Of a DNA stretch of 44,738 nucleotides, positions 862 to 14,340 are shown piece by piece; the stretch's first letter is position 1, and the number at the start of each line of letters is the position of its first letter. Origin of the DNA: a virus. Under the pieces are notes generated by a model. It made no database searches. It was given only the letters and a program-made list of their open reading frames with translations, and was not told the DNA's origin. Location: IMG/VR virus record IMGVR_UViG_3300009085_000009, positions 1 to 44,738 of that record, one strand, 5' to 3'. The translations under genes and the position numbers were made by a program.

Positions 862-1200
862 TCAATCCTTAGATAAGGTATCTATCTTATCTATATTAGA
901 ATGCTTATTAGCTATAGCCTTCCTGTACTGCTTAATCCTCTTGATAGCAGCTCTAGCAACCATGACAAGAGCTGTTCTGCAAGCCGGGTTGATATAGTTA
1001 TCTCCTCTGCTGAAACCTATTGCATGATAGATACGTGCACGTGAGATGCCATAGTCTGCACACGCTGTTTGGATAATCCCCTTAACTCGTCTCATCTCAT
1101 CTAAGTCTTGATATAGTGACTTAACATATGATCTAAGTGATGTTGGTACTGAGTTAGTTGTCATGATATGTACTTGATTAGTATAAAGATTATGTAACAT
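862..1200 (-). CDS. Putative DNA-binding regulatory protein, 112 residues
   Basis: The protein is basic. A segment near residues 45-65 (ADYGISRARIYHAIGFSRG) has the look of a helix-turn-helix, followed by an Arg/Lys-rich helix. I do not recognise the family. The ATG at 1200 has no clear Shine-Dalgarno; an internal ATG at 1164 is the alternative start. It is expressed from the promoter at 1265-1293, which directly abuts the 11-base repeat array at 1300-1387, so it may bind that array and regulate itself, or act as a replication/partition factor. It lies just upstream of the leftward late-side genes, so a late activator role is also possible. Confidence 0.55.
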   Translation of the reverse strand: MLHNLYTNQVHIMTTNSVPTSLRSYVKSLYQDLDEMRRVKGIIQTACADYGISRARIYHAIGFSRGDNYINPACRTALVMVARAAIKRIKQYRKAIANKHSNIDKIDTLSKD

Positions 1201-1264
1201 TTATTAATAATAAGTAAGAGCGATGATGGATAGAAGGTGTTATTTGCACCTAGTGAACGACTGA

Positions 1265-1293
1265 AGTGTAGCATACTTTCTAGTAAAAGTCAA
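1265..1293 (-). promoter_or_regulatory. Leftward extended -10 sigma70 promoter
   Basis: Reading leftward there is TTGACT (1293-1288), a 17-base spacer and TACACT (1270-1265) preceded by TGC, an extended -10. It resembles the promoters at 1931 and 2767, which also have TTGAC, 17 bases and TGCTA. It reads into the gene at 862-1200. The DnaA-box-like TTATTCACA at 1297-1305 and the repeat array lie directly upstream of the -35. Confidence 0.6.
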
Positions 1294-1299
1294 TAGTTA

Positions 1300-1387
1300 T
1301 TCACAAGATATTAACAAGATATACACATGTTGTTAACAAGTTATTAACAAGTTACTAACAAGATATACACAATATACTCACATAATA
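1300..1387. repeat. Eight tandem 11-bp phased repeats (iteron/centromere-like array)
   Basis: Imperfect units start at 1300, 1311, 1322, 1333, 1344, 1355, 1366 and 1377, exactly 11 bases apart. The consensus is near TTAACAAGATA; the ACA core is kept in every unit. The strongest units, with TTAACAAG, are at 1311, 1333 and 1344. A perfect DnaA-box match, TTATTCACA, spans 1297-1305, and two near matches (ATATACACA) are at 1319-1327 and 1363-1371. An 11-base period places all sites on one DNA face. This suits an iteron origin, a ParR/parC-type centromere or a cooperative operator. Confidence 0.7.
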
Positions 1388-1425
1388 AATAGTTAATAGT
1401 CGTTAATATGTACTTAATCTTCATG

Positions 1426-1434
1426 TGATATAGT
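1426..1434 (+). promoter_or_regulatory. Possible extended -10 promoter for the lipoprotein gene
   Basis: TG-A-TATAGT at 1426-1434 matches an extended -10 element. There is no good -35 hexamer at the usual distance. It would start transcription near 1441, which supports the internal ATG at 1474 as the translation start. Confidence 0.35.
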
Positions 1435-1473
1435 ATGGATTATCACAAACTAATAACTATTGGAGAATATCTT

Positions 1474-1908
1474 ATGAAAAATAAACTACTATTAACAACT
1501 CTATCATTACTATTATTAAGCTGTATGTCGTCATATGGATTCAATGGTGTGCTACCATCTTCTGTTGTATGTTCTGGGCCACAACCTTGCGTAGGCGGGG
1601 ATCCTGACCTAATGATAGACGGATGGGTATTATCATCAGAAAGTGGATCATATATTAAACCTGGATCTTATAGTTTCACTGGCTCTTTGATAGCTGGTAA
1701 TCCAAACGACGGTCTATACAAGACTGTAGTCTTCAGATATCACATGGTTGATACAGATGGGTATAACTACTATGTGTCCTATCAAGCGGCTAATTGGATC
1801 ATACCAGTAAAGAAAGATAAGTACATAAAGGAAGGTGATTTAGCTAAATGTACCTCTACAACAGATATAACAGATTGCTATGTTGATGTTGTTGCTCCAA
1901 GAAAATAA
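1474..1908 (+). CDS. Putative secreted lipoprotein (moron candidate), 144 residues
   Basis: The start is the ATG at 1474, eight bases after GGAG; an upstream in-frame ATG at 1435 would precede the likely transcription start. The N-terminus MKNKLLLTTLSLLLLSC is a Sec signal with a lipobox-like LLSC, so C17 would carry the lipid. The mature protein has further Cys pairs (CSGPQPC near residue 33 and two more near the C-terminus) and looks beta-rich. It sits alone between two divergent control regions. Phage lipoproteins of this kind often block superinfection at the cell surface, but that role here is only inferred. Confidence 0.65.
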   Translation: MKNKLLLTTLSLLLLSCMSSYGFNGVLPSSVVCSGPQPCVGGDPDLMIDGWVLSSESGSYIKPGSYSFTGSLIAGNPNDGLYKTVVFRYHMVDTDGYNYYVSYQAANWIIPVKKDKYIKEGDLAKCTSTTDITDCYVDVVAPRK

Positions 1909-1930
1909 TTTAATAATATCAAAATAACTA

Positions 1931-1959
1931 TTGACACACTTATATATCCGTGCTACTAT
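1931..1959 (+). promoter_or_regulatory. Strong early promoter, extended -10, first of a related pair
   Basis: Perfect TTGACA at 1931-1936, a 17-base spacer, TG at 1951-1952 and TACTAT at 1954-1959. The upstream flank TAACTATTGACACAC is almost the same at 2761-2775 before the second promoter. It reads into a structured leader and then the genes at 2104 and 2369. Confidence 0.75.
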
Positions 1960-1967
1960 CTCATCAT

Positions 1968-2042
1968 AGTAAGACAATGTAGCAACTTACTAAGCTGAGA
2001 GTCAAAGCTATACAACTGGCTCAGAGTAACGACTTAATCGTT
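1968..2042 (+). ncRNA. Three-hairpin 5' leader RNA, copy 1 (put-like candidate)
   Basis: Starting nine bases after the -10 are three hairpins: AGTAAG (1968-1973) with CTTACT (1986-1991), CTGAG (1995-1999) with CTCAG (2020-2024), and AACGA (2028-2032) with TCGTT (2038-2042) closing a five-base loop. The leader at 2806-2878 has the same three hairpins in the same order with different paired bases, so the fold rather than the sequence appears conserved. HK022 put RNAs, which modify RNA polymerase for antitermination, are similarly placed at the 5' ends of early transcripts. Confidence 0.55.
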
Positions 2043-2103
2043 AATATAGTTAATGAATGAGTATTATACAATTAAAAGACAAAATACGGGTTGATATTCA
2101 AGA

Positions 2104-2304
2104 ATGAAAAAAGATAAAAAAACAATAGAAAAACTAGTTACAAATATAGTTTCATTTAGAAAGCGTGTACCGCATATTTGTACAGAATGTGGGAAACGCT
2201 TTCTAGCTTACTCTTGCGCACTTACTTGTAATAGTACTTGCCGATCAGCAAGAAGAAGACGAAAAAATAAAGAAAAACAAAGTTACGTGTCGAAAAAACA
2301 ATAA
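2104..2304 (+). CDS. Small basic zinc-finger-like protein, 66 residues
   Basis: The protein has CTEC near residues 26-29 and two further Cys (TCNSTC) near 41-46, spaced like a treble-clef or zinc-ribbon site. A strongly basic Arg/Lys tail follows (SARRRRKNKEK), which suggests nucleic acid binding. No family is recognised. It is the first gene after the three-hairpin leader. An inverted repeat spans its stop codon. Confidence 0.65.
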   Translation: MKKDKKTIEKLVTNIVSFRKRVPHICTECGKRFLAYSCALTCNSTCRSARRRRKNKEKQSYVSKKQ

Positions 2305-2317
2305 AAAATCGACACGT
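2285..2317 (+). terminator. Nine-bp inverted repeat across a stop codon
   Basis: ACGTGTCGA at 2285-2293 pairs perfectly with TCGACACGT at 2309-2317 around an A-rich 15-base loop. It overlaps the end of the preceding gene. No T-run follows, so it may stabilise mRNA, act as a protein site or be a weak terminator. ATGTCGA recurs at 2328-2334. Confidence 0.4.
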
Positions 2318-2368
2318 CATGGTCACATGTCGAAATCATAAATATATCGATAAAAGAGGTTGGAATAA

Positions 2369-2692
2369 ATGAAGAAATATAAAAGATATTTATGCTCATA
2401 CAAATGGTATGCTGGCAAAGATATGTGGGTCGTTAAAAGGTTTGATTTAATAGTTTATGCTCATAACAAAAAATTAATTTTAGACAGAATTTGTGTCATA
2501 TTTGATGAAATATTATGTGGAGAGGATAGGTTTAATTTTATAGGTAAGCTGGTAAGTTATGAAGTGCTAAAAATGAATGATGGAGACATGTATATGTTAC
2601 CAAAATACGATTTAGGTTATGGTAATTACAAATATATATATTATCATAATGACGGGAGCGAAACCACCTATCTTGGGGAAGTTTATTTATAG
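2369..2692 (+). CDS. Hypothetical early protein, 107 residues
   Basis: A Shine-Dalgarno AAGAGG precedes the ATG. The protein is rich in Tyr and Lys and looks beta-structured; it begins MKKYKRYLCSYKWYAGKDMW. It matches no family I can name. It is the second gene of the cluster behind the 1931 promoter. Confidence 0.65.
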   Translation: MKKYKRYLCSYKWYAGKDMWVVKRFDLIVYAHNKKLILDRICVIFDEILCGEDRFNFIGKLVSYEVLKMNDGDMYMLPKYDLGYGNYKYIYYHNDGSETTYLGEVYL

Positions 2693-2766
2693 AGCTATAA
2701 TATCGCTACTTCAACGATTAAATGCATAAGTAAAACAAAACAAATATAAAATAATTAAAATAACTA

Positions 2767-2795
2767 TTGACACACATAAGTAGGCGTGCTATAGT
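2767..2795 (+). promoter_or_regulatory. Strong early promoter, extended -10, second of a related pair
   Basis: Perfect TTGACA at 2767-2772, a 17-base spacer and TATAGT at 2790-2795 preceded by TGC. It is a close relative of the promoter at 1931 and drives the cluster from 3029 to 5915 through a leader of about 225 bases. Confidence 0.8.
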
Positions 2796-2805
2796 AACAT
2801 CAAAT

Positions 2806-2878
2806 GATAACAGAAGTTGATGTTATCAAGTGAACGCAAGACAACTATAAAATATTGCGAGAGTGGCGACTATATCGC
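2806..2878 (+). ncRNA. Three-hairpin 5' leader RNA, copy 2 (put-like candidate)
   Basis: Eleven bases after the -10 comes GATAAC (2806-2811) with GTTATC (2822-2827), then CGCAA (2835-2839) with TTGCG (2855-2859), then GCGA (2866-2869) with TCGC (2875-2878) closing loop CTATA. Order and spacing match copy 1, and hairpins 2 and 3 are joined by AGAGT here and AGT there. Nearly every stem pair differs from copy 1 while pairing is kept. The rest of the gap to 3029 holds only a possible 34-codon basic reading frame (2928-3032) without a ribosome site. Confidence 0.55.
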
Positions 2879-3028
2879 GAATAGTAACGCAAGGACGTAG
2901 GGAGCCAACCTGAAACCCACGCAAAAAATGATCCACCAGACAGCGGCCAATATAAGAAGAATAACAAATATAACAAGAAAAATAAACGGCCGCAACACTG
3001 GGATTAAAACTTTAACGAGGAAATATAA

Positions 3029-3241
3029 ATGAAAAATTATAATGTAGACAATTTTATCACCGAAGCTATGGAACGTCACGGTGCATTTTTTGCATTTAGC
3101 GACGAACAATTTAAACAACAAAAGAAGGAAGGTATAAATTATTCAAGTATGGGCGTTGGTTTAATCTGTCCGACAGAAAACGCAGATGCATTAGCAATTG
3201 AGCTAAAAAATCTGTCAAAGCAAAAGAGGAAATTAAAATGA
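3029..3241 (+). CDS. Hypothetical early protein, 70 residues
   Basis: ACGAGGAAATATAAATG gives a good ribosome site. The protein is small and mixed alpha/beta, with a basic C-terminus (LSKQKRKLK). Its TGA stop overlaps the next start in an ATGA, which implies translational coupling to the gene at 3238. Function unknown. Confidence 0.65.
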   Translation: MKNYNVDNFITEAMERHGAFFAFSDEQFKQQKKEGINYSSMGVGLICPTENADALAIELKNLSKQKRKLK

Positions 3242-3678
3242 ACACTAAAATACATTATGATAATGCAACATCTAAACAAAGACAATTTATTGAAAGAAAG
3301 ATCTACGAATCATTACATGCTCAAGGACCTCTTGTAGAAATGCTTTTACAAAAAGAAATATTTAGTCATGATGACATCATTAATTTATATACCAAAAGAT
3401 GCACATACTGCGGGCGCACTGTTTTTCCTGGAGTTGTAGAAAAATGTTGTGAATATGAGAGCGAAGAAAAATATACAATACAAACAGAACCACAGGAAAT
3501 TTTAGAATGGTACCTAGTCACTGATTCATGGATAGCTAAAAAAGTAATAGAATTAGGTGAACCCGTGTTATCCAATGATTACGACTATTGGTGGGGAAGA
3601 ACATGCAGCGGACAAGCTATTTTTCTTGATCCAACTTTTTGGATTATATATCAAGATTCTTTAAAACATATAGAATAG
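3238..3678 (+). CDS. Hypothetical early protein with a zinc-binding motif, 146 residues
   Basis: CTYCGR near residues 55-60 and a CC pair near residue 71 could form a zinc site in the middle of the protein. The C-terminal half is Trp- and Tyr-rich. It overlaps the previous gene by four bases and is followed at 11 bases by the next. No known family. Compact unknown genes of this kind in an early phage operon are often host-takeover or anti-defence proteins, which is only inference here. Confidence 0.7.
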   Translation: MNTKIHYDNATSKQRQFIERKIYESLHAQGPLVEMLLQKEIFSHDDIINLYTKRCTYCGRTVFPGVVEKCCEYESEEKYTIQTEPQEILEWYLVTDSWIAKKVIELGEPVLSNDYDYWWGRTCSGQAIFLDPTFWIIYQDSLKHIE

Positions 3679-3689
3679 GAGTATTAATC

Positions 3690-4268
3690 ATGAGCAGAGA
3701 GATAGTAAAAAGCATTAAACTTGACAAAAAAAATAGGCGAGTAATTTTGACAAGTCATTGCAATAATTGCATACCGAGAAAAGACAAAAAATGGGAGTGT
3801 ACGGGTTTATCGGAAATATGGCAGAGTAAAGGGCTAGATAGCTTAATTAAAGAAATTCTGTTTGAATTTTGGCAGGGAAATTTTAGTGGCTCATCCACAA
3901 CCTACGCTAAGAGTTTATGCTTTTTGGATAAAAAATCAATGCCACTATATTGTGCTTTCGAGTATGATGACCAAGAATTAGAGGTAGGTTTTCTAGATAA
4001 ACAAGTGAATCTTGCTAAGGAAATTTTAATGATAAATTATTGTCGGTACATGGAAAATAGAAGAAGTTCATTCGGTAAATTTATTTTACAATCGCGCAGT
4101 GTAATAAGCACAAAAGATAAATATTATTTAAAAAAATGTGGAAACAGAATATTTCTTACTGAATCAATAGAAAAAGCAAAAATTTTCAAAAATTCTATGG
4201 ACTTAAAAAAGTTTAATAATCAATTCGTGATAATAGATATTAATAATCAAAGTAAAAAGGAGAGCTAA
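3690..4268 (+). CDS. Hypothetical early protein, 192 residues
   Basis: The chosen ATG at 3690 follows AGGAG by eight bases; an in-frame ATG at 3639 lies inside the previous gene and lacks a ribosome site. The protein begins MSREIVKSIKLDKKNRR and has a CNNC pair near residue 25. It is basic overall. No recognised domain. Confidence 0.7.
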   Translation: MSREIVKSIKLDKKNRRVILTSHCNNCIPRKDKKWECTGLSEIWQSKGLDSLIKEILFEFWQGNFSGSSTTYAKSLCFLDKKSMPLYCAFEYDDQELEVGFLDKQVNLAKEILMINYCRYMENRRSSFGKFILQSRSVISTKDKYYLKKCGNRIFLTESIEKAKIFKNSMDLKKFNNQFVIIDINNQSKKES

Positions 4269-4270
4269 AA

Positions 4271-4393
4271 ATGAACAACTTTAAACAATTTATAAAACTT
4301 GTTTTAGAAAAATTAAAATCATCAAAAACAACGAAAGAGATTAAGCGGTTAGCTATTGATTTTGATGAATTTATTGATAAGATATTATTTTAA
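4271..4393 (+). CDS. Very small helical protein, 40 residues
   Basis: ATG at 4271 follows AAGGAG at a good distance and begins two bases after the previous stop. The peptide MNNFKQFIKLVLEKL continues as an amphipathic helix with an acidic end. The tight packing and ribosome site support a real gene. Function unknown. Confidence 0.55.
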   Translation: MNNFKQFIKLVLEKLKSSKTTKEIKRLAIDFDEFIDKILF

Positions 4394-4409
4394 AAAAAGG
4401 TATAATTAA

Positions 4410-4544
4410 ATGAAAAATACAACTCAATCTGAAGAAAATCAGAAAATAAAACAATTAATAAATTATATTGGCTGTTTAGCTATATTTTTTAGACAAAATC
4501 AAGAAAAAAAAGAACTTAACATTAAAGAGGATAAAATAATATGA
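4410..4544 (+). CDS. Very small protein, 44 residues
   Basis: ATG at 4410 is preceded by a weak AAGG. The peptide has a short hydrophobic core (INYIGCLAIFF) between charged ends. Its TGA overlaps the ATG of the following gene in an ATGA, as at other gene joints in this cluster, which favours translation. Function unknown. Confidence 0.5.
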   Translation: MKNTTQSEENQKIKQLINYIGCLAIFFRQNQEKKELNIKEDKII

Positions 4545-4804
4545 AACTTATAGATGTTTTTACGGAAATAAAAAACGTAGGCGAAGAGTTTATAAAATCA
4601 AAACAAGATAGTGATGAAGAAAAAGAACTATTATTTCATCTTACCAATTTATTATTAAACTCAATACCCGGAATATTTAAAGTTATTTTCCCGGATGATA
4701 GTGACTCTTCAAAAGAATTGGCTGAAGAACTTAGTAAAACATTTTGCAAGTATATGAATATTGCTATAGAAAAAAGAAGTCAAAATACAGACAAGATGAA
4801 ATGA
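4541..4804 (+). CDS. Hypothetical acidic helical protein, 87 residues
   Basis: It starts in an ATGA overlap with the preceding small gene. The protein is predicted to be mostly helical, with an acidic middle (PDDSDSSKELAEELSK). No recognised family. Small acidic early proteins can mimic DNA or block host enzymes; there is no direct evidence for that here. Confidence 0.65.
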   Translation: MKLIDVFTEIKNVGEEFIKSKQDSDEEKELLFHLTNLLLNSIPGIFKVIFPDDSDSSKELAEELSKTFCKYMNIAIEKRSQNTDKMK

Positions 4805-4844
4805 TTGGTATTTTTATAGATATTATAAACCAAAGGGGGATATT

Positions 4845-5669
4845 ATGACTAATGATTTGATAGAAAATTTTACAAGTGAAGATTTAATTTATGGTATGTA
4901 TGCATCGATTGACCAAAAATTAATAAAAGAACTGAGCGCTAAACATGGTTTTTGCACAGTACAAGAGTTAATGTATACTCATATAATTTCAAATTTTTTC
5001 GATGGACAAATGCAAACATATGATAAAAAAATAATTAGCGCAATAAAAAAATTTGATCTTTTTACTAAAGAATATAATATTAATTTGAAAAGTTACATGC
5101 CTTTTAATACAATAATAACATATAGCAAAGCATGTATTTTTTGGACGGCTATGAACAATAATAAAATACATTTTGTTTTAACTGATTTACATCAACCATA
5201 TGTTATTTTTAAAAATCACCCAAAAGAGCGACAAATTAAAAACGAACTTAAAAAAAATATTTTAACGAAACGTGATTTAAGCGAAAATTCCAGTCTATCA
5301 CCTAAAACCTATGTTGGATCTGAATTGAGATTTATTGCTAGATATTGGGATGTTCTAAAAAATACAGTAATATTTTGGGATGGAAACCCACTGAAACAAG
5401 TTAAACCACCATTTTTTGATGAAAATGAAATAAAAATATATGACGAAAAAACAGAACAAAAACAGGGTTTTTTGGTGAGTGAAATTGATAAAACATTAAC
5501 GGGAAGGCCATCTTTTTTTTGGAAAGAATACCAACAAAACTATAAATCAAAAGCACTTAAAGATAAATCAATACCAGCGTTAATTAAGCAAACGGTAGAA
5601 AAATCAAATTGTGATTCACATAATAAATCAGCTTTAATAGCAAATATTAATTTTAAATATAGCAAATAA
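4845..5669 (+). CDS. Hypothetical protein, 274 residues, largest gene of the early cluster
   Basis: The ATG at 4845 follows AGGGGG. The protein has no signal peptide or membrane segment. An aromatic block near residues 160-185 (SELRFIARYWDVLKNTVIFW, then DG and PPFF) looks like a conserved motif. I associate a similar arrangement with uncharacterised Legionella-type proteins, but cannot verify that. The last 60 residues are basic. Function unknown. Confidence 0.65.
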   Translation: MTNDLIENFTSEDLIYGMYASIDQKLIKELSAKHGFCTVQELMYTHIISNFFDGQMQTYDKKIISAIKKFDLFTKEYNINLKSYMPFNTIITYSKACIFWTAMNNNKIHFVLTDLHQPYVIFKNHPKERQIKNELKKNILTKRDLSENSSLSPKTYVGSELRFIARYWDVLKNTVIFWDGNPLKQVKPPFFDENEIKIYDEKTEQKQGFLVSEIDKTLTGRPSFFWKEYQQNYKSKALKDKSIPALIKQTVEKSNCDSHNKSALIANINFKYSK

Positions 5670-5681
5670 TTGGAGTAAAAA

Positions 5682-5915
5682 ATGGAAAAATTAAAACGAT
5701 ATGAAATAAATTTAAAAAAGTGTATTCATAAAAAAGAATGCGGTGGATGTGACAAATGGTCTTGGGTTGATATAGACGCCCCCAACAAAGAATTAGCAAA
5801 AGAATTAGCTCTTGATAAATTCTTAGAAATGGGATGCGGCAAAAACAATATCTCTGATTTACAAATTTATATTAGAGCTTCTAATTATAGATTAGAAGAA
5901 TGGGAAAGAAAATAA
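5682..5915 (+). CDS. Hypothetical Cys-containing protein, 77 residues
   Basis: GGAG precedes the ATG. Cys and His near the N-terminus (CIHKKECGGC) could bind a metal; the rest is an alpha/beta fold with two LAKELAL-type helical segments. It is the last gene of the rightward early cluster and faces the leftward replication operon. No terminator hairpin is obvious in the 113 bases before 6029. Confidence 0.65.
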   Translation: MEKLKRYEINLKKCIHKKECGGCDKWSWVDIDAPNKELAKELALDKFLEMGCGKNNISDLQIYIRASNYRLEEWERK

Positions 5916-6028
5916 TAAAATATATATGGATATTACACAGCCAAACTTGATTTAAAGCATCTTTACCTTAACATATATGTAATGTACCAATTAGTTTATA
6001 TCATGTAAAGAAAGCGTTTAAATTGCCT

Positions 6029-6240
6029 TTAAAGCATATCTTGCATTTTGAATGTCGTGTTTGTATGCTGAATTACAACATCATCCGGCCAATCAATAGA
6101 ACTACCTACATTTGATAAATACCACCTTTGCTGATAATGACATTTTTCTTCAAGTATTATAAAAAAACGCCACCTCTATTTGATTTCTTAAATTTTCTAG
6201 ACGAATTAAGTTTTATAGCTTTTCTAAAATTCATATTCAT
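6029..6240 (-). CDS. Small gene with a candidate programmed -1 frameshift (or homopolymer break)
   Basis: Reading leftward from ATG at 6240 or 6234, a basic reading frame (NFRKAIKLNSSRKFKK) ends at TAA 6159-6157. Immediately before that stop is the heptamer T TTT TTA (6166-6160) in the frame required for -1 slippage. The -1 frame then stays open for 43 residues (IILEEKCHYQQRWYL, then NVGSSIDWPDDVV) to TAA at 6031-6029. The joined protein is about 68-70 residues. Either this is programmed frameshifting, or the seven-T run has lost one base. The start overlaps the preceding gene. Confidence 0.55.
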
Positions 6241-6463
6241 AACCTTGTCTGCAATGTTTAACTTTAACCGGGTTGATATCTCTACCAATATATTCTATAA
6301 AACTTATATAATTTCTAAATAATTCCTCTTTAGATTTAATGAAAAAATTAGCATCTTTTTCATTATTAAATATATATATACATACATAACTACTTAAATA
6401 TAAATGATGCTCCACATGAAAAATATCATCATCTATTTTTATAAATTTAAAATAAGATATCAT
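6224..6463 (-). CDS. Hypothetical protein, 79 residues
   Basis: The ATG at 6463 overlaps the stop of the P-like gene in an ATGA, implying coupled translation. The protein is rich in Phe, Tyr and Ile and looks like a compact alpha/beta domain. Function unknown. The following frameshift-candidate gene starts inside its last codons. Confidence 0.65.
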   Translation of the reverse strand: MISYFKFIKIDDDIFHVEHHLYLSSYVCIYIFNNEKDANFFIKSKEELFRNYISFIEYIGRDINPVKVKHCRQGYEYEF

Positions 6464-7140
6464 GATATCTTATCAACCACCTTTTTAATACTCTTGTTTT
6501 CACATAGTATTTTAATATTATGCATTGTATTTTCAACATATTGATTAATTTTACATTCATTTTTAGACATATCAAACATTTCATATTCTAATTTAACTAT
6601 ATTACCTACACTTTCACCGAATCTATGCGCCATATAGGATATATACTCATTCCTAGTTTGATTTGTTTTTGTTGGAGATGGCAATTGTTTTTTATCTAAA
6701 TTATCTATTTTCTCACCCTTGACAACCTTGTCGCATAAAAACGCATAGTGCCTCTTGAATACCCTCTCTTCATCTTCCATAGTTGTTTTTCTTGATGTTG
6801 CAAATTTCCAAGCTATAGATATGGCTTGATGTGTAAATTCTCCGTTTCTAGCTGCTACAATAGCTTTATCAACGTCTATAAGCCCTTTTGCTAAGAATAC
6901 AAATCTTGTAGGCGTTGGTGGCGCTGAATATTGTCCTGTTGCATCTATACATATAGCACCAAGCCCCCTATTAATCTCTTCAATTGTTAGAGGAGAGATA
7001 AATTTACCCCAGAGCTCTTTTGATGTCTTTAAAAAATCAGCTGCGGTCCGTCCAGACGTCCATCTCTGACCAAATATTGCCTCCAACGTCTTGAATATTA
7101 TCGTTAATTTCTCGTTCAGATTTGATTCCGAAGACTTCAT
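6460..7140 (-). CDS. Lambda P-like replication protein (putative helicase loader)
   Basis: The sequence after the start contains FKTLEAIFGQRWTSG and then a segment ending SAPPTPTRFVFLAKG, which match the layout of lambda P-type proteins that deliver host DnaB helicase to the O-bound origin. I chose ATG 7140 because GAGG lies six bases upstream and because the residues between the upstream ATG at 7203 and this point show no family resemblance. The gene overlaps the end of the O-like gene by 104 bases. With the 7140 start the protein is 226 residues, near the 233 of lambda P. Confidence 0.75.
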   Translation of the reverse strand: MKSSESNLNEKLTIIFKTLEAIFGQRWTSGRTAADFLKTSKELWGKFISPLTIEEINRGLGAICIDATGQYSAPPTPTRFVFLAKGLIDVDKAIVAARNGEFTHQAISIAWKFATSRKTTMEDEERVFKRHYAFLCDKVVKGEKIDNLDKKQLPSPTKTNQTRNEYISYMAHRFGESVGNIVKLEYEMFDMSKNECKINQYVENTMHNIKILCENKSIKKVVDKIS

Positions 7141-7930
7141 TGAAGGCCTCATGATATCTGTCTGTAACTGTTTTGTATTGACCGCTATTGCTGCTACTTG
7201 CATTTTTTAAGTCCCTCATGTCTATATTTATAAATTGTTCAAATTCTTTATTTGCACCATAAAATCTCTGGGCTTGCATAACATACGGAGTACCAATATT
7301 TCCGTTTTTAGTTACCAAATCATGATAGTTTCTAGTTGCAGATATTAAAGCATCATAACTAATCCCTTCTTTTATTCTAGTTGACCATTGTTTATAAGCT
7401 GCCTTTTTGCTATTCGATCCATTCCTTTTTGGATAGAATGACCAAGCTGTTTCAAATTCTTCTGTAAAGGTGTCTAAATCGACACCTTTAACTTTTTTAC
7501 GAGAAACCGAAGGTTTCGATATATTATTTAGTTCATATGTTTTTAATTTAGTTATATTAGTATAGTTAGTGTCGCTGTCAGCTACTAGGTTGTCGCTATT
7601 AGCTACAAGGGTGTTGTCGCTGTCAGCTACTAGGTTGTCGCTATTAGCGTTACTTAGTACTATTGTATAAAGTGTTGAAATATTTTCTCCTTCATCATTC
7701 TTGCGTATTATTTTTGTTATAAATCCACGCTCCTCTAGCTTTTTAACGCTTCTTATAACGCTATCTTTAGACAATCCACACTCGTGTGACAAAGTTTTTA
7801 ATGACGGGAAACATCTCCCTTCTGCGTTTGAATGATGGCATAACCAAATAAAAACTATTTGCTCATAAGCTGGCAATCCTTTACACATATTTGCAGGGAA
7901 TACGCTAAACGAACCTTTTTCTAATAACAT
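7037..7930 (-). CDS. Lambda O-like replication initiator with internal origin
   Basis: The start is ATG 7930, five bases after GGAG; an upstream TTG at 7942 is unlikely. Residues about 20-95 form a winged helix-turn-helix of the type found in phage O and replication initiators (GRCFPSLKTLSHECGLSKDS, then VKKLEERGFI). A low-complexity linker of NSDNLVADSD repeats is encoded by the four iterons. The C-terminal domain, with FETAWSFYPKR and GTPYVMQAQRFYG, is typical of phage replication proteins. It would bind the iterons and recruit the P-like protein. Expression must pass the attenuator at 7945-8024. Confidence 0.8.
   Translation of the reverse strand: MLLEKGSFSVFPANMCKGLPAYEQIVFIWLCHHSNAEGRCFPSLKTLSHECGLSKDSVIRSVKKLEERGFITKIIRKNDEGENISTLYTIVLSNANSDNLVADSDNTLVANSDNLVADSDTNYTNITKLKTYELNNISKPSVSRKKVKGVDLDTFTEEFETAWSFYPKRNGSNSKKAAYKQWSTRIKEGISYDALISATRNYHDLVTKNGNIGTPYVMQAQRFYGANKEFEQFINIDMRDLKNASSSNSGQYKTVTDRYHEAFNEVFGIKSEREINDNIQDVGGNIWSEMDVWTDRS
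7505..7649. other. Probable replication origin: four iterons plus AT-rich block inside the O-like gene
   Basis: Four related units of about 19 bases begin at 7570, 7591, 7615 and 7636, 21, 24 and 21 bases apart. The consensus is TGTCGCTRTYAGCTACWAG, with a central dyad such as GCTGTCAGC. On the side downstream in the O gene lies an AT-rich block (7518-7569), preceded by a short hairpin (GAAACC/GGTTTC, 7503-7517). Lambda has the same arrangement: four iterons in the middle of O flanked by an AT-rich unwinding region. The position in the linker-coding part of O also agrees. Confidence 0.75.
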
Positions 7931-7944
7931 AAATTTCTCCAAAT

Positions 7945-8024
7945 AAAAAAGCTCTAATCAGATTGGACGTATTTAGTGGTAGGACTGCAAACAAGTTAGC
8001 AGCTCGCCCAATCTGATTAAAGCT
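7945..8024 (-). terminator. Strong intrinsic terminator/attenuator directly upstream of the O-like gene
   Basis: In leftward RNA, AGCUUUAAUCAGAUUGG (8024-8008) pairs with CCAAUCUGAUUAGAGCU (7966-7950), 17 base pairs with one U-G pair, then six U (7950-7945). The plus-strand RNA would have a C-A mismatch at that pair and no U-run, so the element acts leftward. It lies between a promoter near 8066 and the O start at 7930, and GGAG follows the U-run. The loop holds CTACCAC (7982-7976), complementary to GTGGTAG in the 5' leader (8051-8045), which would allow a pseudoknot or alternative fold. Confidence 0.8.
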
Positions 8025-8065
8025 CAGTCTTGTTTAATGTATGGCTACCACACCAATTTTTATCC

Positions 8066-8093
8066 ATCATACCACACTTTACATAAAAGTTAA
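8066..8093 (-). promoter_or_regulatory. Leftward extended -10 promoter for the O leader RNA
   Basis: TATGAT (8071-8066 leftward) is preceded by TGG, an extended -10. The best -35 is TTAACT (8093-8088) at 16 bases, a weak match. Transcription would start near 8059 and give an RNA of about 115 bases if it stopped at the attenuator. Confidence 0.5.
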
Positions 8094-8164
8094 ATAAATT
8101 CTTTAGTAATAATTAAGACTTAATGTTGGGGATAAAAAATATATTGTGCTAGCATAAACATCGA

Positions 8165-8434
8165 CTATGTTGGCTTAGTCATTTCTATTATTTTTTCAAT
8201 TAAATTGTTTAAATAAATAACAGCCTCATCTTCAGTTAAAAATGTTTCGTATAAGTTCCATTCTTTGTCGTAAAACTCAAGATAAATATGATACAAAAAA
8301 TAATACTTATTATCCTTTCCCCTCTTCTTTTCTTTATTTATTTTTGATCCAATAATTGGATTATGCTGTATATTAATTATTCTACCTACTTCTTTCATCT
8401 TTAAATACATACTATGAATCTCAATTTTATACAT
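8165..8434 (-). CDS. Hypothetical protein, 89 residues
   Basis: The protein is basic in the middle (KINKEKKRGKDNK) and has a C-terminal helix ending in LIEKIIEMTKPT. No known family. The DNA encoding its last ten residues is duplicated in degraded form at 8459-8492, so a paralogous gene end has been left between this gene and its upstream neighbour. Confidence 0.6.
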   Translation of the reverse strand: MYKIEIHSMYLKMKEVGRIINIQHNPIIGSKINKEKKRGKDNKYYFLYHIYLEFYDKEWNLYETFLTEDEAVIYLNNLIEKIIEMTKPT

Positions 8435-8458
8435 GTTATTAATTTGTGGTTATGCTAT

Positions 8459-8492
8459 CTTAGTCATTTCTGTTATTTTTTCAATTTAATTA
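8459..8492 (-). pseudogene. Remnant of a duplicated gene end
   Basis: The sequence CTTAGTCATTTCTGTTATTTTTTCAATT repeats 8173-8200 with one change (A to G). Read leftward it would encode EKITEMTK, close to the EKIIEMTK at the end of the gene at 8165. No start or full gene remains here, so it appears to be the tail of a lost paralogue. Confidence 0.5.
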
Positions 8493-8498
8493 AACAAA

Positions 8499-8957
8499 TT
8501 ATAATTTTCTTAATTTATTTAAATCAGAATAATGTCCTTCAGTTGAAAAATCGTATTCATGGATATTACCTATAATTTCATATTCCTCAGGCCAACTAGT
8601 CCAGTCGTCATGATGTCCAAAATGAGCGCCGTGCTTATCAAGAAAAAGGCAAATACTTCCATCATTATCCATTTCTCCAACAAATGTACCTATTACAAAT
8701 CTAGATACTGGAATAATATCTGTTACCACAACTAAACCATTATCTGAGTATTTACGCAAGCAATCAGATTCATATATTTTATTTCCATTTGAATCTAATA
8801 ATCCGATAAAAAAATCTACCTTATAATCCATATAAGTTTCGACAATTCCATTTATTATTAAATCTCCATCAGGATGTAAAGAAATAGTTATTTTATCACT
8901 TTCTTTCACAAATTTTTTATTTTTAACATCCCAAATTCTATATTCTAATTTTGACAT
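8499..8957 (-). CDS. YopX-family protein
   Basis: The start ATG 8957 follows GGAG; an in-frame upstream start at 8981 has no ribosome site. The layout is that of the YopX family common in phages: an N-terminal LEYRIWDVKNKKFV, a central FIGLLDSNGNKIYESDCL with the D-x-NG-K-IYE-D signature, and a C-terminal EEYEIIGNIHEYD. The family is widespread but its biochemical function is not established. It sits in the leftward early operon among other small accessory genes. Confidence 0.8.
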   Translation of the reverse strand: MSKLEYRIWDVKNKKFVKESDKITISLHPDGDLIINGIVETYMDYKVDFFIGLLDSNGNKIYESDCLRKYSDNGLVVVTDIIPVSRFVIGTFVGEMDNDGSICLFLDKHGAHFGHHDDWTSWPEEYEIIGNIHEYDFSTEGHYSDLNKLRKL

Positions 8958-9023
8958 AATTATAATTCTCCAATAAACCATCTATTTATAAAACACTGCT
9001 AAAATCTTTTGCTAATTCTATTT

Positions 9024-9272
9024 TTATTCCTCATAAATCTCAACGGCGCCATACTCTTCTAAAAGATCAATAATTTTTTTTGCATCATCAATTCCGCCAT
9101 CAAATAAACCCTTAAGGTATTCAATCCAGGCGTTGTTATAACTTTCAATTCTATATGGATAAGGTCTTCCTACCGGGTCACCAATTTTCTTTCTTAAAAT
9201 GAATTTTAGATTATCAGACAAAGCTACATCTTCTTTCTCGACAATTGGCCTACAATTTAAAGTCATACTCAT
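9024..9272 (-). CDS. Hypothetical protein, 82 residues
   Basis: The start is ATG 9272 after GAGGTG; an upstream GTG at 9278 is the alternative. The C-terminal half is helical and acidic, ending DLLEEYGAVEIYEE. No recognised family. It is separated from the upstream Cys-rich gene by only a few bases. Confidence 0.65.
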   Translation of the reverse strand: MSMTLNCRPIVEKEDVALSDNLKFILRKKIGDPVGRPYPYRIESYNNAWIEYLKGLFDGGIDDAKKIIDLLEEYGAVEIYEE

Positions 9273-9279
9273 AATCACC

Positions 9280-9498
9280 TCAATTTTTTTTCAAACAATA
9301 TTTGCAACCATCAAAATGACAAAAATCATCTATCCTGCAATCATGACATACAGTTAAATTTGGGCATACTTCTTGAACTATTTTATATACCTCGCCAGGC
9401 ATTAGAGCATATAGTTTGTTTAAAACAGAAGTTAATACTTTACTATTTTTATGTAAAATTATTGTACATTCATTACATTTTTCATCGCATAAAGTCAT
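9280..9498 (-). CDS. Cys-rich small protein, 72 residues
   Basis: Eight or nine Cys and several His are spread over the protein: CDEKCNEC at the start and, near the end, CPNLTVCHDCRIDDFCHF with GCKYC. This suggests two zinc sites. It could be a nucleic acid or protein-binding adaptor. No named family is recognised. Confidence 0.65.
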   Translation of the reverse strand: MTLCDEKCNECTIILHKNSKVLTSVLNKLYALMPGEVYKIVQEVCPNLTVCHDCRIDDFCHFDGCKYCLKKN

Positions 9499-9533
9499 AA
9501 ATACCCCGTTAATCTTTTAATTCTTAGTATTGA

Positions 9534-9740
9534 TTAGATTTGTATTTTTTTCATTTCATCAATTAAATAAACAAATAAATCTTCTTTATTCTTTTTTATC
9601 AAGAGTTCTACTTGTTGCTGGAACTTATAAAAACAAGCAAAATCCTTGAAAAATAATTTAAATTCCTCACCTAAAATTATTACAGTCGCTTTTTTTGTTT
9701 TGACGTTCCATGAAAAAGAAATGTTTTGATTAAAAGACAT
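9534..9740 (-). CDS. Hypothetical protein, 68 residues
   Basis: A small protein with a beta-type N-terminus (MSFNQNISFSWNVKTKKATV) followed by helices rich in Phe and Lys. It overlaps nothing and lies four bases from the DUF551-like gene upstream. Function unknown. Confidence 0.6.
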   Translation of the reverse strand: MSFNQNISFSWNVKTKKATVIILGEEFKLFFKDFACFYKFQQQVELLIKKNKEDLFVYLIDEMKKIQI

Positions 9741-9743
9741 GAT

Positions 9744-10127
9744 TTAATCTCTTTTTTTTACTTTTATATATTTACGAGATGTTTCTTCAAATGTCTTCGC
9801 GCAATCTCTAACCCAAGGAGTATCAAAATCAGCAGGCCCAGGCTCTACAAGCTCATCTTCAGGTAGATCAGGTATTGGCGCCCAGTATGAGACATAATTC
9901 CAGCGTAAATGGTGGTAGCATCCATACCTCCATCGGTCTGGGGCGGGGTAAGGCTTCCCATCATTATCACGATAACTCTTATCCTTTTCAAGTTGAGCAA
10001 CTAATACATTATGCATCCCCCGATGCTTCTTATCTCTGCCAATCCAGTTCCCACCGTTATAAATAACAAGAACATATTGTCCATATTCAGGAAGTTTATC
10101 TTTAACATTTATCCAGGTTTTATTCAT
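9744..10127 (-). CDS. DUF551-like protein, 127 residues
   Basis: The N-terminus TWINVKDKLPEYGQYVLVIY and the later VSYWAPIPDLPED are the two ends of the DUF551 pattern found in many phages of Gram-negative bacteria. An extra His/Trp-rich insert (RWRYGCYHHLRWN) lies between them. The C-terminal 35 residues are charged and outside the domain. Function of the family is unknown. Confidence 0.75.
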   Translation of the reverse strand: MNKTWINVKDKLPEYGQYVLVIYNGGNWIGRDKKHRGMHNVLVAQLEKDKSYRDNDGKPYPAPDRWRYGCYHHLRWNYVSYWAPIPDLPEDELVEPGPADFDTPWVRDCAKTFEETSRKYIKVKKRD

Positions 10128-10178
10128 ATTAATAATTCCCCATAGTAATATTACTCATTTTATTCTCCTAAATTAATT

Positions 10179-10433
10179 TTATTTAAAAAATTTCTTGAAA
10201 TCTTTTTCAACTCTTATTCTCTTCCCGCACCAAGGGCAAAAAACAAAACCACAATCTTTAACGCTATCTACATCATAATTATAATCTCCATTTGCAAAAT
10301 TAAATGAATGCCAGCATGATGTCAACCATTCGCTTGCAGTCAAGCCTTCCAATTTAATTTCAAAATACCATGTACATTTTTTACTTTCCGGCTGGATATT
10401 ATTGTTTTTAATTTTATTCTTGAAAATACTCAT
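10179..10433 (-). CDS. Small zinc-ribbon protein, 84 residues
   Basis: The C-terminal FCPWCGKRI is a zinc-knuckle half; an earlier C-x-F motif (DCGFVF) and a Cys near residue 41 could complete the site. The DNA-level ATG overlaps the stop of the upstream HTH gene. It probably belongs to the family of short phage zinc proteins with a final CPxCG. Role unknown. Confidence 0.65.
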   Translation of the reverse strand: MSIFKNKIKNNNIQPESKKCTWYFEIKLEGLTASEWLTSCWHSFNFANGDYNYDVDSVKDCGFVFCPWCGKRIRVEKDFKKFFK

Positions 10434-10612
10434 AACTTAATACCCCGTTCTTTAGCGCAATACATCATCCACCCAACAAATACATGATGAGGTTTAAACT
10501 TTCCAGTCTCCCATCTTGATAAAGTTGATATATTTACTCCTAACTTACAAGCAAATTCTTTTTGCGTTAGACCTAATGCTTTTCTTAGCTTCTTAATCTT
10601 TTTTGGTGTCAT
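10430..10612 (-). CDS. Cro-like XRE-family regulator, 60 residues
   Basis: The protein is one helix-turn-helix domain: KKLRKALGLTQKEFACKLG then VNISTLSRWETGK, the classic XRE pattern with Q at the start of helix 2. At 60 residues it is the size of Cro and lacks the dimerisation and autocleavage domain of CI. It is the first gene of the leftward operon from the promoter at 10648-10676. The palindromic operators in both divergent promoters are its obvious targets, so it probably represses both its own operon and the rightward operon. No partner repressor gene is seen nearby. Confidence 0.85.
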   Translation of the reverse strand: MTPKKIKKLRKALGLTQKEFACKLGVNISTLSRWETGKFKPHHVFVGWMMYCAKERGIKL

Positions 10613-10647
10613 AATCTATCCATCTAAATATATTGTATAATAAATAC

Positions 10648-10676
10648 ATAATAGCGCACATGCGTACATAAGTCAA
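10648..10676 (-). promoter_or_regulatory. Leftward early promoter PL
   Basis: Leftward TTGACT (10676-10671), a 17-base spacer and TATTAT (10653-10648). It drives the XRE gene and the operon behind it. The operator at 10652-10666 fills its spacer. Confidence 0.75.
10652..10666. promoter_or_regulatory. Operator copy 1, TAGCGCACATGCGTA
   Basis: Imperfect palindrome nearly identical to the copy at 10708-10722 (one base differs). It lies between -10 and -35 of PL, so a bound repressor would exclude RNA polymerase. Confidence 0.75.
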
Positions 10677-10699
10677 ATCAAAATATTTTAAAATAGTTG

Positions 10700-10728
10700 T
10701 TGACAAATAGCGCATATGCGTATATGAT
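10700..10728 (+). promoter_or_regulatory. Rightward early promoter PR
   Basis: Perfect TTGACA at 10700-10705, a 17-base spacer and TATGAT at 10723-10728. Transcription should start near 10735 and runs through a structured leader with a terminator before the gene at 11036. The second operator lies in its spacer. Confidence 0.8.
10708..10722. promoter_or_regulatory. Operator copy 2, TAGCGCATATGCGTA
   Basis: Palindrome with core CGCATATGCG in the spacer of PR. It matches copy 1 at 14 of 15 bases. The centres of the two copies are 56 bases apart, between divergent promoters. Confidence 0.75.
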
Positions 10729-10923
10729 AGCACTTAAGATTGATTAACATTATACGTTAGCATTACCAATCTTCACCGCGTTCGCCGTGATGGCAGCCGA
10801 GAGCGGCGGCAGTAGTAATTAGACGAGTTGAAATTTATGAGTCTAATATTAAGTTTACAATGCCAACATGCCCTGCGATAGATTCTTTTATGATTAGCTA
10901 CCGTAAAACATGAGAGGCATCTC

Positions 10924-10983
10924 ATGAGAAATTTATCAGTACTTCTTAGCGGAGGAGCAGGGCTCCTGTTTTTTGTAAAATAA
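10924..10983 (+). CDS. 19-residue hydrophobic leader peptide
   Basis: ATG at 10924 follows AGAGG by seven bases. The peptide is MRNLSVLLSGGAGLLFFVK, hydrophobic and Gly-rich with one positive charge at each end. Its start codon is in a hairpin stem and its ribosome site mostly in the hairpin's left arm and loop, while its codons run through the whole terminator and stop just after the T-run. Translation would therefore disrupt the terminator. It might be a regulatory leader peptide or a small membrane peptide similar to type I toxins. Confidence 0.5.
   Translation: MRNLSVLLSGGAGLLFFVK
10953..10974 (+). terminator. Intrinsic terminator in the PR leader
   Basis: AGGAGC (10953-10958) and GCTCCT (10962-10967) form a stem with a three-base loop, followed by G and six T (10969-10974). 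It precedes all protein genes of the rightward operon, so the operon needs antitermination or readthrough. Confidence 0.75.
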
Positions 10984-11035
10984 CCAAGAATGAAGTTTTT
11001 GCGTTTTATAAGTATATGTTTTTTGTGTTAGTAAA

Positions 11036-11293
11036 ATGGGGTATTTTAAAATGGTAAAAATTTTCACATGCGCTAGATGTGAATATATTTTTAGAGGAGA
11101 GAGAAAATGCCCTATGTGTGGCTATCCTGGATGTTATAGGGCAAGATATTTATATGGCAGTAGATGTTATTCTTACGAAAAAACACAACTAATGTGGATG
11201 GAAAAGAAGTTAGCATACTATAAACATTTATTGATTAACAAAATAGAGCGTTTAAACAAACAACAGCCGAGTAGCGGCGGCATTAATGAATAA
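11036..11293 (+). CDS. Small zinc-ribbon protein, 85 residues
   Basis: CARC and CPMCGYPGC in the first 35 residues make a four-Cys zinc ribbon, followed by a basic helical tail. The ATG at 11051 (residue 6) is an alternative start; neither has a strong Shine-Dalgarno. The last codons lie in the CAGCCGAG-AGCGGCGGCA repeat shared with the leader. It is the first full-size gene of the rightward operon, a place where antitermination or regulatory proteins are often found, but no function can be assigned. Confidence 0.65.
   Translation: MGYFKMVKIFTCARCEYIFRGERKCPMCGYPGCYRARYLYGSRCYSYEKTQLMWMEKKLAYYKHLLINKIERLNKQQPSSGGINE
11264..11282 (+). repeat. Second copy of a 19-bp GC-rich hairpin repeat
   Basis: CAGCCGAGTAGCGGCGGCA here matches CAGCCGAGAGCGGCGGCA at 10794-10811 except for one inserted base. 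Both form GCCG/CGGC hairpins, in leader sequence in one case and in the last codons of a gene in the other. Confidence 0.65.
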
Positions 11294-11335
11294 CCAAGCT
11301 TGATGTATGTGCGGTTAATGAAAAAATTTATGGCT

Positions 11336-11430
11336 ATTACCGGTTAGATAACAATTTGTTATAGCATAATATAAGGTTCGATTCCTGCTCCTCTGGTGAG
11401 GTTATGCTTTATATGGTATCTAACCGTAAT
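11336..11430 (+). ncRNA. Structured RNA element A
   Basis: An outer stem pairs ATTA and CGGTTAGATA (11336-11350, one C bulged) with TATCTAACCG and TAAT (11417-11430). Inside, AGCATAA (11363-11369) pairs with TTATGCT (11402-11408), and CCTC-TGGT-GAGG (11390-11401) makes a terminal hairpin. The inner loop contains TAAGGTTCGATTCCTGCTCCTCTGGT (11372-11397, shown here only as its core GGTTCGATTCC and CTCCTCTGGT), which is shared with element B at 16705. It has a tRNA T-arm look but is not a tRNA. It lies between two genes of the rightward operon. Confidence 0.6.
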
Positions 11431-11540
11431 CGTCATGAAAAAATAAATAACCAAGAATAAATCATTTTCGGTTATTGTTTTAACTTAATTATTAAGAATT
11501 AATTATCATTTAATTTTAAATTTAACATAGGAGAAAGGTT

Positions 11541-11771
11541 ATGGAACTTAAATTAAATATATCAACTGATACGGCGTATGCTTCTTTTGCTCCAGTTGCA
11601 ACAAGAACTTTTGGTCTTCTTGTAGAAGGAGACGAGAGAGAGCTTAGAAACGAATTGGCAAACTTTTTCGAAAAAAGAAAGATTTATGAAACACTAAAAG
11701 GAAAAGAATGGGTGGAAAAAGTTATCAACCAAAGTATAGGTCTATTTTATGAAGAGTCAGAGTCTAATTAA
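11541..11771 (+). CDS. Hypothetical protein, 76 residues
   Basis: A strong AGGAGAAAGG site precedes the ATG. The protein begins with a beta-type segment (MELKLNISTDTAYASFAPVA) and continues with an acidic helix. No family is recognised. It overlaps the next gene by 23 bases. About 110 bases separate it from structured RNA A. Confidence 0.65.
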   Translation: MELKLNISTDTAYASFAPVATRTFGLLVEGDERELRNELANFFEKRKIYETLKGKEWVEKVINQSIGLFYEESESN

Positions 11772-11982
11772 TCATACTATAAATACAATAGATAATATCT
11801 TTTTCAAAAAAGAGATAGTTAAGCCATCATGGTTACCGAAGCAACATGAATATTGTGCCTCGCATGGTCTTGATATTTATGCCCCGCTTAATGGCATTTG
11901 CTATTGCGGAGCAGAAATACCAGATAATGGCGAATCATTAATAACAAGTTGCAAAAACTGCCACAGGAGCTTTGTTGATTAA
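11749..11982 (+). CDS. Small zinc-binding protein, 77 residues
   Basis: The Cys/His pattern includes C near residue 36 with H39, GICYCGAEI near 50-58, and SCKNCHRSF near the end. This would suit one or two zinc sites. The start at 11749 lies inside the previous gene. No named family. It is one of several zinc proteins in this operon. Confidence 0.6.
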   Translation: MKSQSLINHTINTIDNIFFKKEIVKPSWLPKQHEYCASHGLDIYAPLNGICYCGAEIPDNGESLITSCKNCHRSFVD

Positions 11983-12001
11983 TACTTTTAAATGAGAGTT
12001 T

Positions 12002-13690: not shown

Positions 13691-14137
13691 ATGAAAAATT
13701 TTGAACATTATGTTTGTACTTTTGAACAGGCAAAACAATTGAATGAACTTGGTGTAAAAAAAGAAAGTTGTTTCTACTGGACTGATGGGTTTAATAATTT
13801 ACCTGAAATTACACTTTTTGAAGTGGATAAATGTTATTCAGCATTTACAAGCCAGGATCTTTGCGAATTAATTGTTGAATATATAGACAAACATAATTTA
13901 TCAGAATATTGCGAATGTGAACTGGTAGATGAAGCAATCCACCTGGAAATACAACCTAAAGATAGAGAAAACAACATAGGATACCTGTTTTATAGTATTA
14001 GATTGGGAACAAGCGAATTCGATCCTTACGATGGAGATCACGTTTATATATTTGAATTATATGCTGAAACAGAAGCAATTGCTAGAGCAGAATTTTTAAT
14101 TTATTTGTTTAAAAATAAATGTACAAAAAATTTATAA
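13691..14137 (+). CDS. Hypothetical protein, 148 residues
   Basis: A GGTGAG site precedes the ATG. The protein is acidic, with Tyr and Phe in strands, and begins [21 protein letters not shown], a pattern that recurs in small phage and prophage proteins of unknown function. The C-terminal helix contains [10 protein letters not shown]. It lies between SSB and CsrA. Confidence 0.7.
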
Positions 14138-14154
14138 ATAATTGGAGAAGGATA

Positions 14155-14340
14155 ATGTTAATTTTAACGAGAAAACTAGGCGAGTCAATCATAATTGGTG
14201 ATAATGTTAGCATAACAGTTGTATCACACAAAGATGGTAATATAAAACTTGGCGTAGAAGCACCAAAAGAAATATCAGTTCACAGAGAAGAAATTTATTA
14301 TAAAATAAAAAATAATGAACATATCGAAAAAAAGGGGTAA
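14155..14340 (+). CDS. csrA: Phage-encoded CsrA (carbon storage regulator / RsmA-type RNA-binding protein)
   Basis: The start is ATG 14155 after GGAGAAGG; an upstream in-frame ATG at 14119 lies inside the previous gene. The 61-residue product begins [18 protein letters not shown] and has [12 protein letters not shown], with L4, R6 and R44, the residues that contact GGA motifs in RNA. This is the size of bacterial CsrA. CsrA dimers bind GGA in hairpin loops near ribosome sites and alter translation and mRNA stability. A phage copy could reprogramme the host or regulate its own GGA-rich leaders. Confidence 0.93.

Follow-up and report, generated by a model that had tools for sequence, protein, structure and literature searches.

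Two tandem phage leaders with three hairpins each are probably an orphan, cis-acting RNA

A virus of bacteria carries two closely related promoters, P1 and P2, each followed by a leader that is predicted to fold into three hairpins, and the two leaders, L1 and L2, have changed in sequence with their pairing kept. Comparison of the two copies makes it very likely that this structured, duplicated leader is real, and L1 and L2 are probably an orphan, cis-acting leader RNA. The RNA is not described in Rfam 15. When the whole window (IMG/VR record IMGVR_UViG_3300009085_000009, 44,738 nt) was searched against Rfam, no match reached the gathering score (families including EAR and C4 antisense RNA), and a search of 1200-12000 with E up to 5 returned only chance-like matches outside the leaders.

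The first and last 123 nt of the record are identical (1-123 and 44616-44738), so it is probably a complete genome, circular or terminally redundant. Its GC content is 31.7%. Terminase, portal and capsid belong to the late genes, which are read leftward from about 1.2 kb, across the junction of the ends, as far as 15 kb. An HTH repressor of 60 aa is encoded together with an O-like initiator and a P-like loader in a leftward operon (10.6-6.2 kb), and a rightward operon at 10.7-15 kb encodes RecT, an SSB-like protein and CsrA. The lineage is podovirus-like, and the closest relatives found have a portal of up to ~41% and a capsid of up to ~56% identity. A separate rightward block at 1.9-5.9 kb, predicted from its promoters to be driven by P1 and P2, consists of small genes that are mostly orphan.

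The two promoters were predicted from sequence as sigma70-type and match the consensus at 10 (P1) and 11 (P2) of 12 positions. An earlier note on this DNA had described them as close relatives, which was borne out: they have the same -35, the same 17-bp spacing and the common core TTGACACACnTAnnTAnnCGTGCTA, of which the window holds two copies against 0.01 expected. Start sites and transcription were taken from the consensus only, with +1 set seven bases after the -10, and we infer that P1 and P2 are early promoters. Upstream lies the 13-mer AATAACTATTGAC, which occurs without mismatch exactly three times in the window, at P1, P2 and a third promoter of the family, P3 (Table 1). The P3 leader was considered as a member of the L1/L2 group and rejected, as it has only the promoter in common with them. 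P3 directly follows a 22/11-bp iteron-like array of TATTAACAAGA units (1298-1382), and its leader carries CGCTCTTACTTATT at 1222-1209, resembling the start of lambda boxA. P3-like promoters with the arrangement AATAACTATTGACTTTT-N5-AAAGTATGCTA and, within the spacer, the inverted repeat ACTTT/AAAGT were also seen at eight or more loci of other phage groups. These groups have no proteins in common with this phage, and in several of them the first downstream gene looks like a small terminase-type protein.

Table 1. Positions of predicted promoters, leaders, hairpins and selected genes in the window
Feature	Position	Strand	Description
P1 promoter	1931-1959	+	TTGACA-17-TACTAT, TG two bases 5' of -10
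P2 promoter	2767-2795	+	TTGACA-17-TATAGT, TG two bases 5' of -10
P3 promoter	1265-1301	-	third member of the family, AATAACTATTGACT-17-TACACT, pointing leftward to the late operon
Leader L1	1966-2050	+	predicted +1 to end of homology with L2
Leader L2	2802-2886	+	predicted +1 to end of homology with L1
L1 hairpin 1	1967-1992	+	TAGTAAG (1967-1973) / CTTACTA (1986-1992), loop 12
L2 hairpin 1	2805-2828	+	TGATAACA (2805-2812) / TGTTATCA (2821-2828), loop 8
L1 hairpin 2 (corrected)	1999-2022	+	GAGTCA (1999-2004) / TGGCTC (2017-2022), loop with CTATACAA (2008-2015)
L2 hairpin 2	2835-2859	+	CGCAA (2835-2839) / TTGCG (2855-2859), loop with CTATAAAA (2845-2852)
L1 hairpin 3	2027-2043	+	TAACGA (2027-2032), loop CTTAA, TCGTTA (2038-2043); preceded by AGAG linker 2023-2026
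L2 hairpin 3	2864-2880	+	TGGCGA (2864-2869), loop CTATA, TCGCGA (2875-2880), one G.G mismatch; preceded by AGAG 2860-2863
L1 tail	2045-2050	+	TATAGT, by sequence complementary to GCTATA in the loop of hairpin 2 (2007-2012)
First gene 3' of L1	2104-2304	+	66-aa protein, Cys pairs and C-terminal Arg-rich stretch SARRRRKNKEKQ
First gene 3' of L2	3029-3241	+	70-aa DUF7659 protein (PF24692)
CsrA homologue	14119-14340		PF02599, E 2e-24

Homology between the P1 and P2 cassettes runs from 5' of the -35 to about 6 bases beyond hairpin 3 and then ends; the next 60 nt 3' of the leaders gave no alignment above shuffles. None of 5000 shuffles matched the alignment of the 3' parts of the leaders, from after hairpin 1 to about 2052 and 2889. 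Taken by itself, hairpin 1 aligned no better than chance (1422 of 5000 shuffles were as good), although its flanks do align. Both leaders have the same layout, in which hairpin 1, with 7-8 Watson-Crick pairs, starts at predicted +2 (L1) or +4 (L2) and is followed by AAG and a few bases, hairpin 2, AGAG and hairpin 3, the linkers between the three hairpins being 6 nt and 4 nt. The single-stranded motifs AAG-UGA, CUAUAnAA in loop 2 and AGAG are conserved. L1 and L2 follow one another on the same strand at a distance of 836 bp and end 54 nt (L1) and 142 nt (L2) before the first start codon, so they do not overlap the ribosome-binding site. No reading frame common to both leaders was seen by eye, and a 26-codon frame in L2 is absent from L1.

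Hairpin 1 is as the earlier note had drawn it (AGTAAG/CTTACT versus GATAAC/GTTATC), with a pairing probability of at least 0.99 in L1 and 0.92 in L2. For hairpin 2, the stem proposed in L2 (CGCAA/TTGCG) was kept, whereas that proposed in L1 (CTGAG/CTCAG) had a pairing probability of 0 and was replaced by the stable stem GAGTCA/TGGCTC, which has a probability of 0.93 and the same anchors as the L2 stem. The pairing probability of hairpin 2 in L2 is only 0.14-0.17, because a fold that is better by about 0.7 kcal/mol, consisting of ACTAT (2844-2848)/ATAGT (2881-2885) and TTGCGA/TCGCGA, competes with it. In L1, the inner helix of this alternative fold is unavailable, but the outer helix can form there too (GCUAUA 2007-2012/UAUAGU 2045-2050), so that loop 2 and the tail may form a pseudoknot or an alternative helix, or act as a switch. 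The chance level of this loop 2/tail helix in shuffles was 0.18 in L1, which is weak, and 0.02 in L2. Hairpin 3 with its five-base loop also agrees with the earlier description, its core being conserved sequence with one covarying pair and one mismatch in L2. It is the most conserved of the three hairpins (15 nt; pentaloop CUUAA or CUAUA), and CGACU..AUCG is conserved within it.

Pair changes between L1 and L2 were counted by hand from the sequences. Overall, nine pairs were changed on both sides with pairing kept and one was broken, confirming that changes in both arms have preserved the stems. Two-sided changes affect all five shared pairs of hairpin 2 (G-C/C-G, A-U/G-C, G-C/C-G, U-G/A-U and C-G/A-U) and three of the seven pairs of hairpin 1, in which none is broken. 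Among the six pairs of hairpin 3, one is changed on both sides, one is broken (A-U vs G.G) and the others are invariant. Consensus folding of an anchor-guided L1/L2 alignment recovered all three hairpins.

In mononucleotide shuffles with fixed anchors, the chance of the stem was 0.0014 (L1) and 0.0003 (L2) for hairpin 1, and 0.002 (L1) and 0.0046 (L2) for hairpin 2. Considering that the anchors were picked after looking, these values are optimistic, and a promoter-wide control was therefore added, which covered 599 strong promoters on both strands of ~3.2 Mb DNA, nearly all phage. In 11 of them the start carried a hairpin with 7 or more Watson-Crick pairs; 8 of these also had a second hairpin and 4 also a third. 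Two of these four were L1 and L2 themselves, and one other was an (AT)n repeat. When the AGAG linker and the upstream promoter were included in the descriptor, only L1 and L2 matched. The folding energies of the single sequences stand out only mildly (L1, z -1.6; L2, z -2.8) and would not be convincing alone.

Homologues of the leaders were searched for widely. None was found in 2.9 million viral contigs (IMG/VR) with four DNA patterns, or in 50,697 phage records and 72,556 plasmids by DNA blast, and in 399 genomes the leader pattern occurred at the control rate only. Searches seeded by the DUF7659 protein, the promoter core or TerL gave no leader homologue. The promoter spacing motif matched promoters without the leader, and in a CACAC..GTGCTA promoter search the three-hairpin descriptor found nothing. 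Matches to the hairpin 3 motif and to the loop-plus-hairpin 3 motif were rejected as chance. The portal and capsid searches gave structural relatives only, and the compared parts of their records lack the cassette; since these nearest records are fragments, the absence is weak evidence. The known copies are two, in one genome. Covarying homologues in related phages had been proposed as a check on an antiterminator function, and finding none neither confirms nor kills that idea.

Downstream of the leaders, a simple scan of the + strand found no intrinsic terminator before 7465-7490, where the sole convincing + strand intrinsic terminator lies, past the operon end. A looser hairpin scan of the + strand to 6300 gave weak, unconvincing hairpins within genes (3058-3083, 3592-3633 and 5466-5509). 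In base composition (C over G bubble) the stretch after L2 is not unusual and gives no sign of a Rho site, a kind of site that cannot be judged from sequence. Two further structures were observed in this block. At 2928-3008, directly before the first gene after L2, a GC-rich stem TGATCC..CAG..GCGGCC / GGCCGC..CTGGGATT encloses an A-rich loop of 39 nt with AATATAACA repeats, and the region including it (2881-3028) has a folding z of -2.6. At 2288-2333, after the first P1 gene, CGTGTCG..CGACACG and TCGACACGT..ACATGTCGA use a common arm and thus form mutually exclusive hairpins, of which the second is terminator-like on the minus strand.

For the function of the leaders, we tentatively put forward the following mechanism. 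P1-L1 and P2-L2 would be two copies of one promoter-plus-leader cassette, whose RNA would start at the transcription start, fold into three hairpins joined by the conserved single-stranded motifs and act in cis as RNA, the same partner recognising it at both transcripts. This partner would most likely be the RNA polymerase that has just made the leader, alone or with host factors, and the elongation complex would become resistant to pausing and termination in the manner of HK022 put, through an unrelated RNA. By analogy, this put-like mode of action is the leading mechanism, possible but unproven. The loop and linker motifs were kept while hairpin 1 lost alignable identity, which argues for specific recognition and not only for a stable 5' end. 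Counting against an action on polymerase are the restriction to two copies in one genome, the lack of a homologue in the searches, of a convincing intrinsic terminator before 7465 in the hairpin scans and of a put match, and the tandem order. If the first copy made polymerase processive, the second, 836 bp away, would be redundant. Tandem leaders suit a once-per-mRNA function better than antitermination, and protection of the mRNA and binding of a protein therefore stay close as rivals. It is rather unlikely that the leaders are a new RNA family acting on its own transcribing polymerase, by way of processivity or antitermination, and unrelated to put in sequence and architecture.

In E. coli, the ompA 5' hairpin shields its mRNA from 5'-end-dependent decay. 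By analogy, the leader may be a 5'-terminal structure for mRNA stabilisation or processing, with hairpin 1 blocking pyrophosphate removal and 5'-end-dependent decay, which we regard as possible though somewhat unlikely. It would account for a hairpin 1 of 7-8 Watson-Crick pairs that lies, in L1 and L2 alike, 1-3 nt from the predicted start, that keeps its pairing without alignable sequence, and whose like, with at least 7 pairs at the start, occurs in only 11 of 599 strong promoters. However, it leaves unexplained the covariation of hairpin 2, as well as hairpin 3 and the motifs CUAUAnAA, AGAG and CGACU..AUCG, which are conserved to a sharp end. Alternatively, an RNA-binding protein of the phage or its host may bind the leader, in a nut-like way or as another regulator, with hairpin 3, the most conserved one with ~5 pairs and a 5-nt loop, as a boxB-like handle; the product of the first gene downstream of L1 is a small protein with Cys pairs and an Arg-rich tail. 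We consider such a site unlikely. No boxA (YGCTCTTWA, at most one mismatch) was present in 1966-2052 or 2802-2889, which disfavours a nut site. For the 66-aa Cys-rich protein, the only family match is weak, to an HNH endonuclease, and there is no link to N. The N family had no match among the early proteins (N proteins are short and divergent and may escape search), and the proteins searched included no recognisable homologue of N, Nun or Q. Recognition by CsrA is disfavoured because neither leader (1966-2050 and 2802-2886) contains GGA, though the phage encodes CsrA.

Two further accounts were also weighed. The promoter segment may have been duplicated recently, with a functionless leader RNA whose hairpins are residue plus AT-rich self-complementarity. 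The modest single-sequence folding z and the commonness of hairpins at 31.7% GC fit this account, but hairpin 1 has diverged beyond alignment and is still perfectly paired in both copies, all five shared pairs of hairpin 2 were changed on both sides, and the chance per stem at fixed anchors is 0.0003-0.005, making it improbable. It is very improbable that a regulator of P1/P2 uses the inverted repeats as DNA operators. Palindromic operators are common at phage promoters, and the PR region of this phage has them (AGCGCAYATGCGTA at 10653 and 10709); however, the arms of hairpins 1 and 2 differ between the copies, so that one protein could not read both, and neither P1 nor P2 contains the PR operator motif.

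The PR transcript at 10736 had also been said to begin with a hairpin. The hairpin exists but is not special: the 78-nt PR leader has a folding z of -0.72, and a fold as good as that of its first 31 nt is reached by 46% of genome windows. With folding at chance level, the PR leader was rejected as a third member beside L1 and L2. Within the PR transcript (10853-10975), an intrinsic terminator AGGAGCAGGGCTCCTGTTTTTT lies at 10953-10967, 5' of the first gene, and GCCCTGC upstream can pair with GCAGGGC and break it; to judge from these sequences, the terminator is possibly an attenuator. A strong intergenic hairpin at 11330-11438 (z -3.3) has a tRNA-T-arm-like GGTTCGATTCC in its top, and its CCTGCTCCTC is complementary to GAGGAGCAGG at the PR terminator. 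Three 36-nt direct repeats with AATAACCAAG, at 10975, 11285 and 11442, lie between early PR-operon genes.

Among known systems, lambdoid nut sites resemble L1 and L2 in their early leader position and in a small hairpin with a 5-nt loop, whereas L1 and L2 lack boxA, have extra hairpins and belong to a phage in which no N homologue was recognised. Stabiliser hairpins of the E. coli ompA type are likewise stable, lie a few nucleotides from the 5' end and keep shape rather than sequence. L1 and L2 have such a hairpin within a few nucleotides of the transcript 5' end, as judged from promoter geometry only, but add two hairpins and conserved loop motifs.

Among phage RNAs that render polymerase resistant to termination with no dedicated protein, put is the best studied; it is known from enterobacterial phages (HK022, and also HK639, HK75 and relatives). 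HK022 put RNA is ~73 nt long, consists of two stems split by a single bifurcation nucleotide and docks on the beta' zinc-binding domain; putL lies directly 3' of an early promoter, and a dedicated phage protein is not needed (PMC9378689). We built a put covariance model from nine RNAs (HK022 putL and putR, HK639, phiEt88, UPF_BP1, CobraSix, S9-5, PDP110P2 and PdC23), which scored HK022 putL at 92, HK639 at 90.2 and HK022 putR at 47.6 bits, all three being in the model. It had no match in the whole window up to E 10, and with filters off the best score in 1900-3050 was 2.2 bits (E about 1-10). A partial alignment of L2 hairpin 2 to put stem I was rejected, as its 0.7 bits are at chance level and it is absent in L1. 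Model and architecture (three hairpins, 6- and 4-nt linkers, no put invariants) thus exclude the leaders from the put family. Of the functional RNA proposed earlier, a structured RNA kept under sequence change at the 5' ends stands, whereas the kinship with HK022 put does not. None of the put pattern GAACG..GTCGG..GGCGGG..CAAT occurs in L1 or L2, and the HK022 copies lie on divergent PL and PR transcripts with terminators downstream (annotated in HK639), whereas L1 and L2 are in tandem on one strand. The likeness is that of a structured RNA of ~70-75 nt, in two related copies per phage, directly 3' of a promoter that is here taken to be early, and by this analogy the leaders, though not put, could act in a put-like way. 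If they are a second, unrelated solution of this kind, such RNAs can evolve repeatedly; even if they protect mRNA, two diverged copies with kept pairing offer a ready-made test of a leader RNA.
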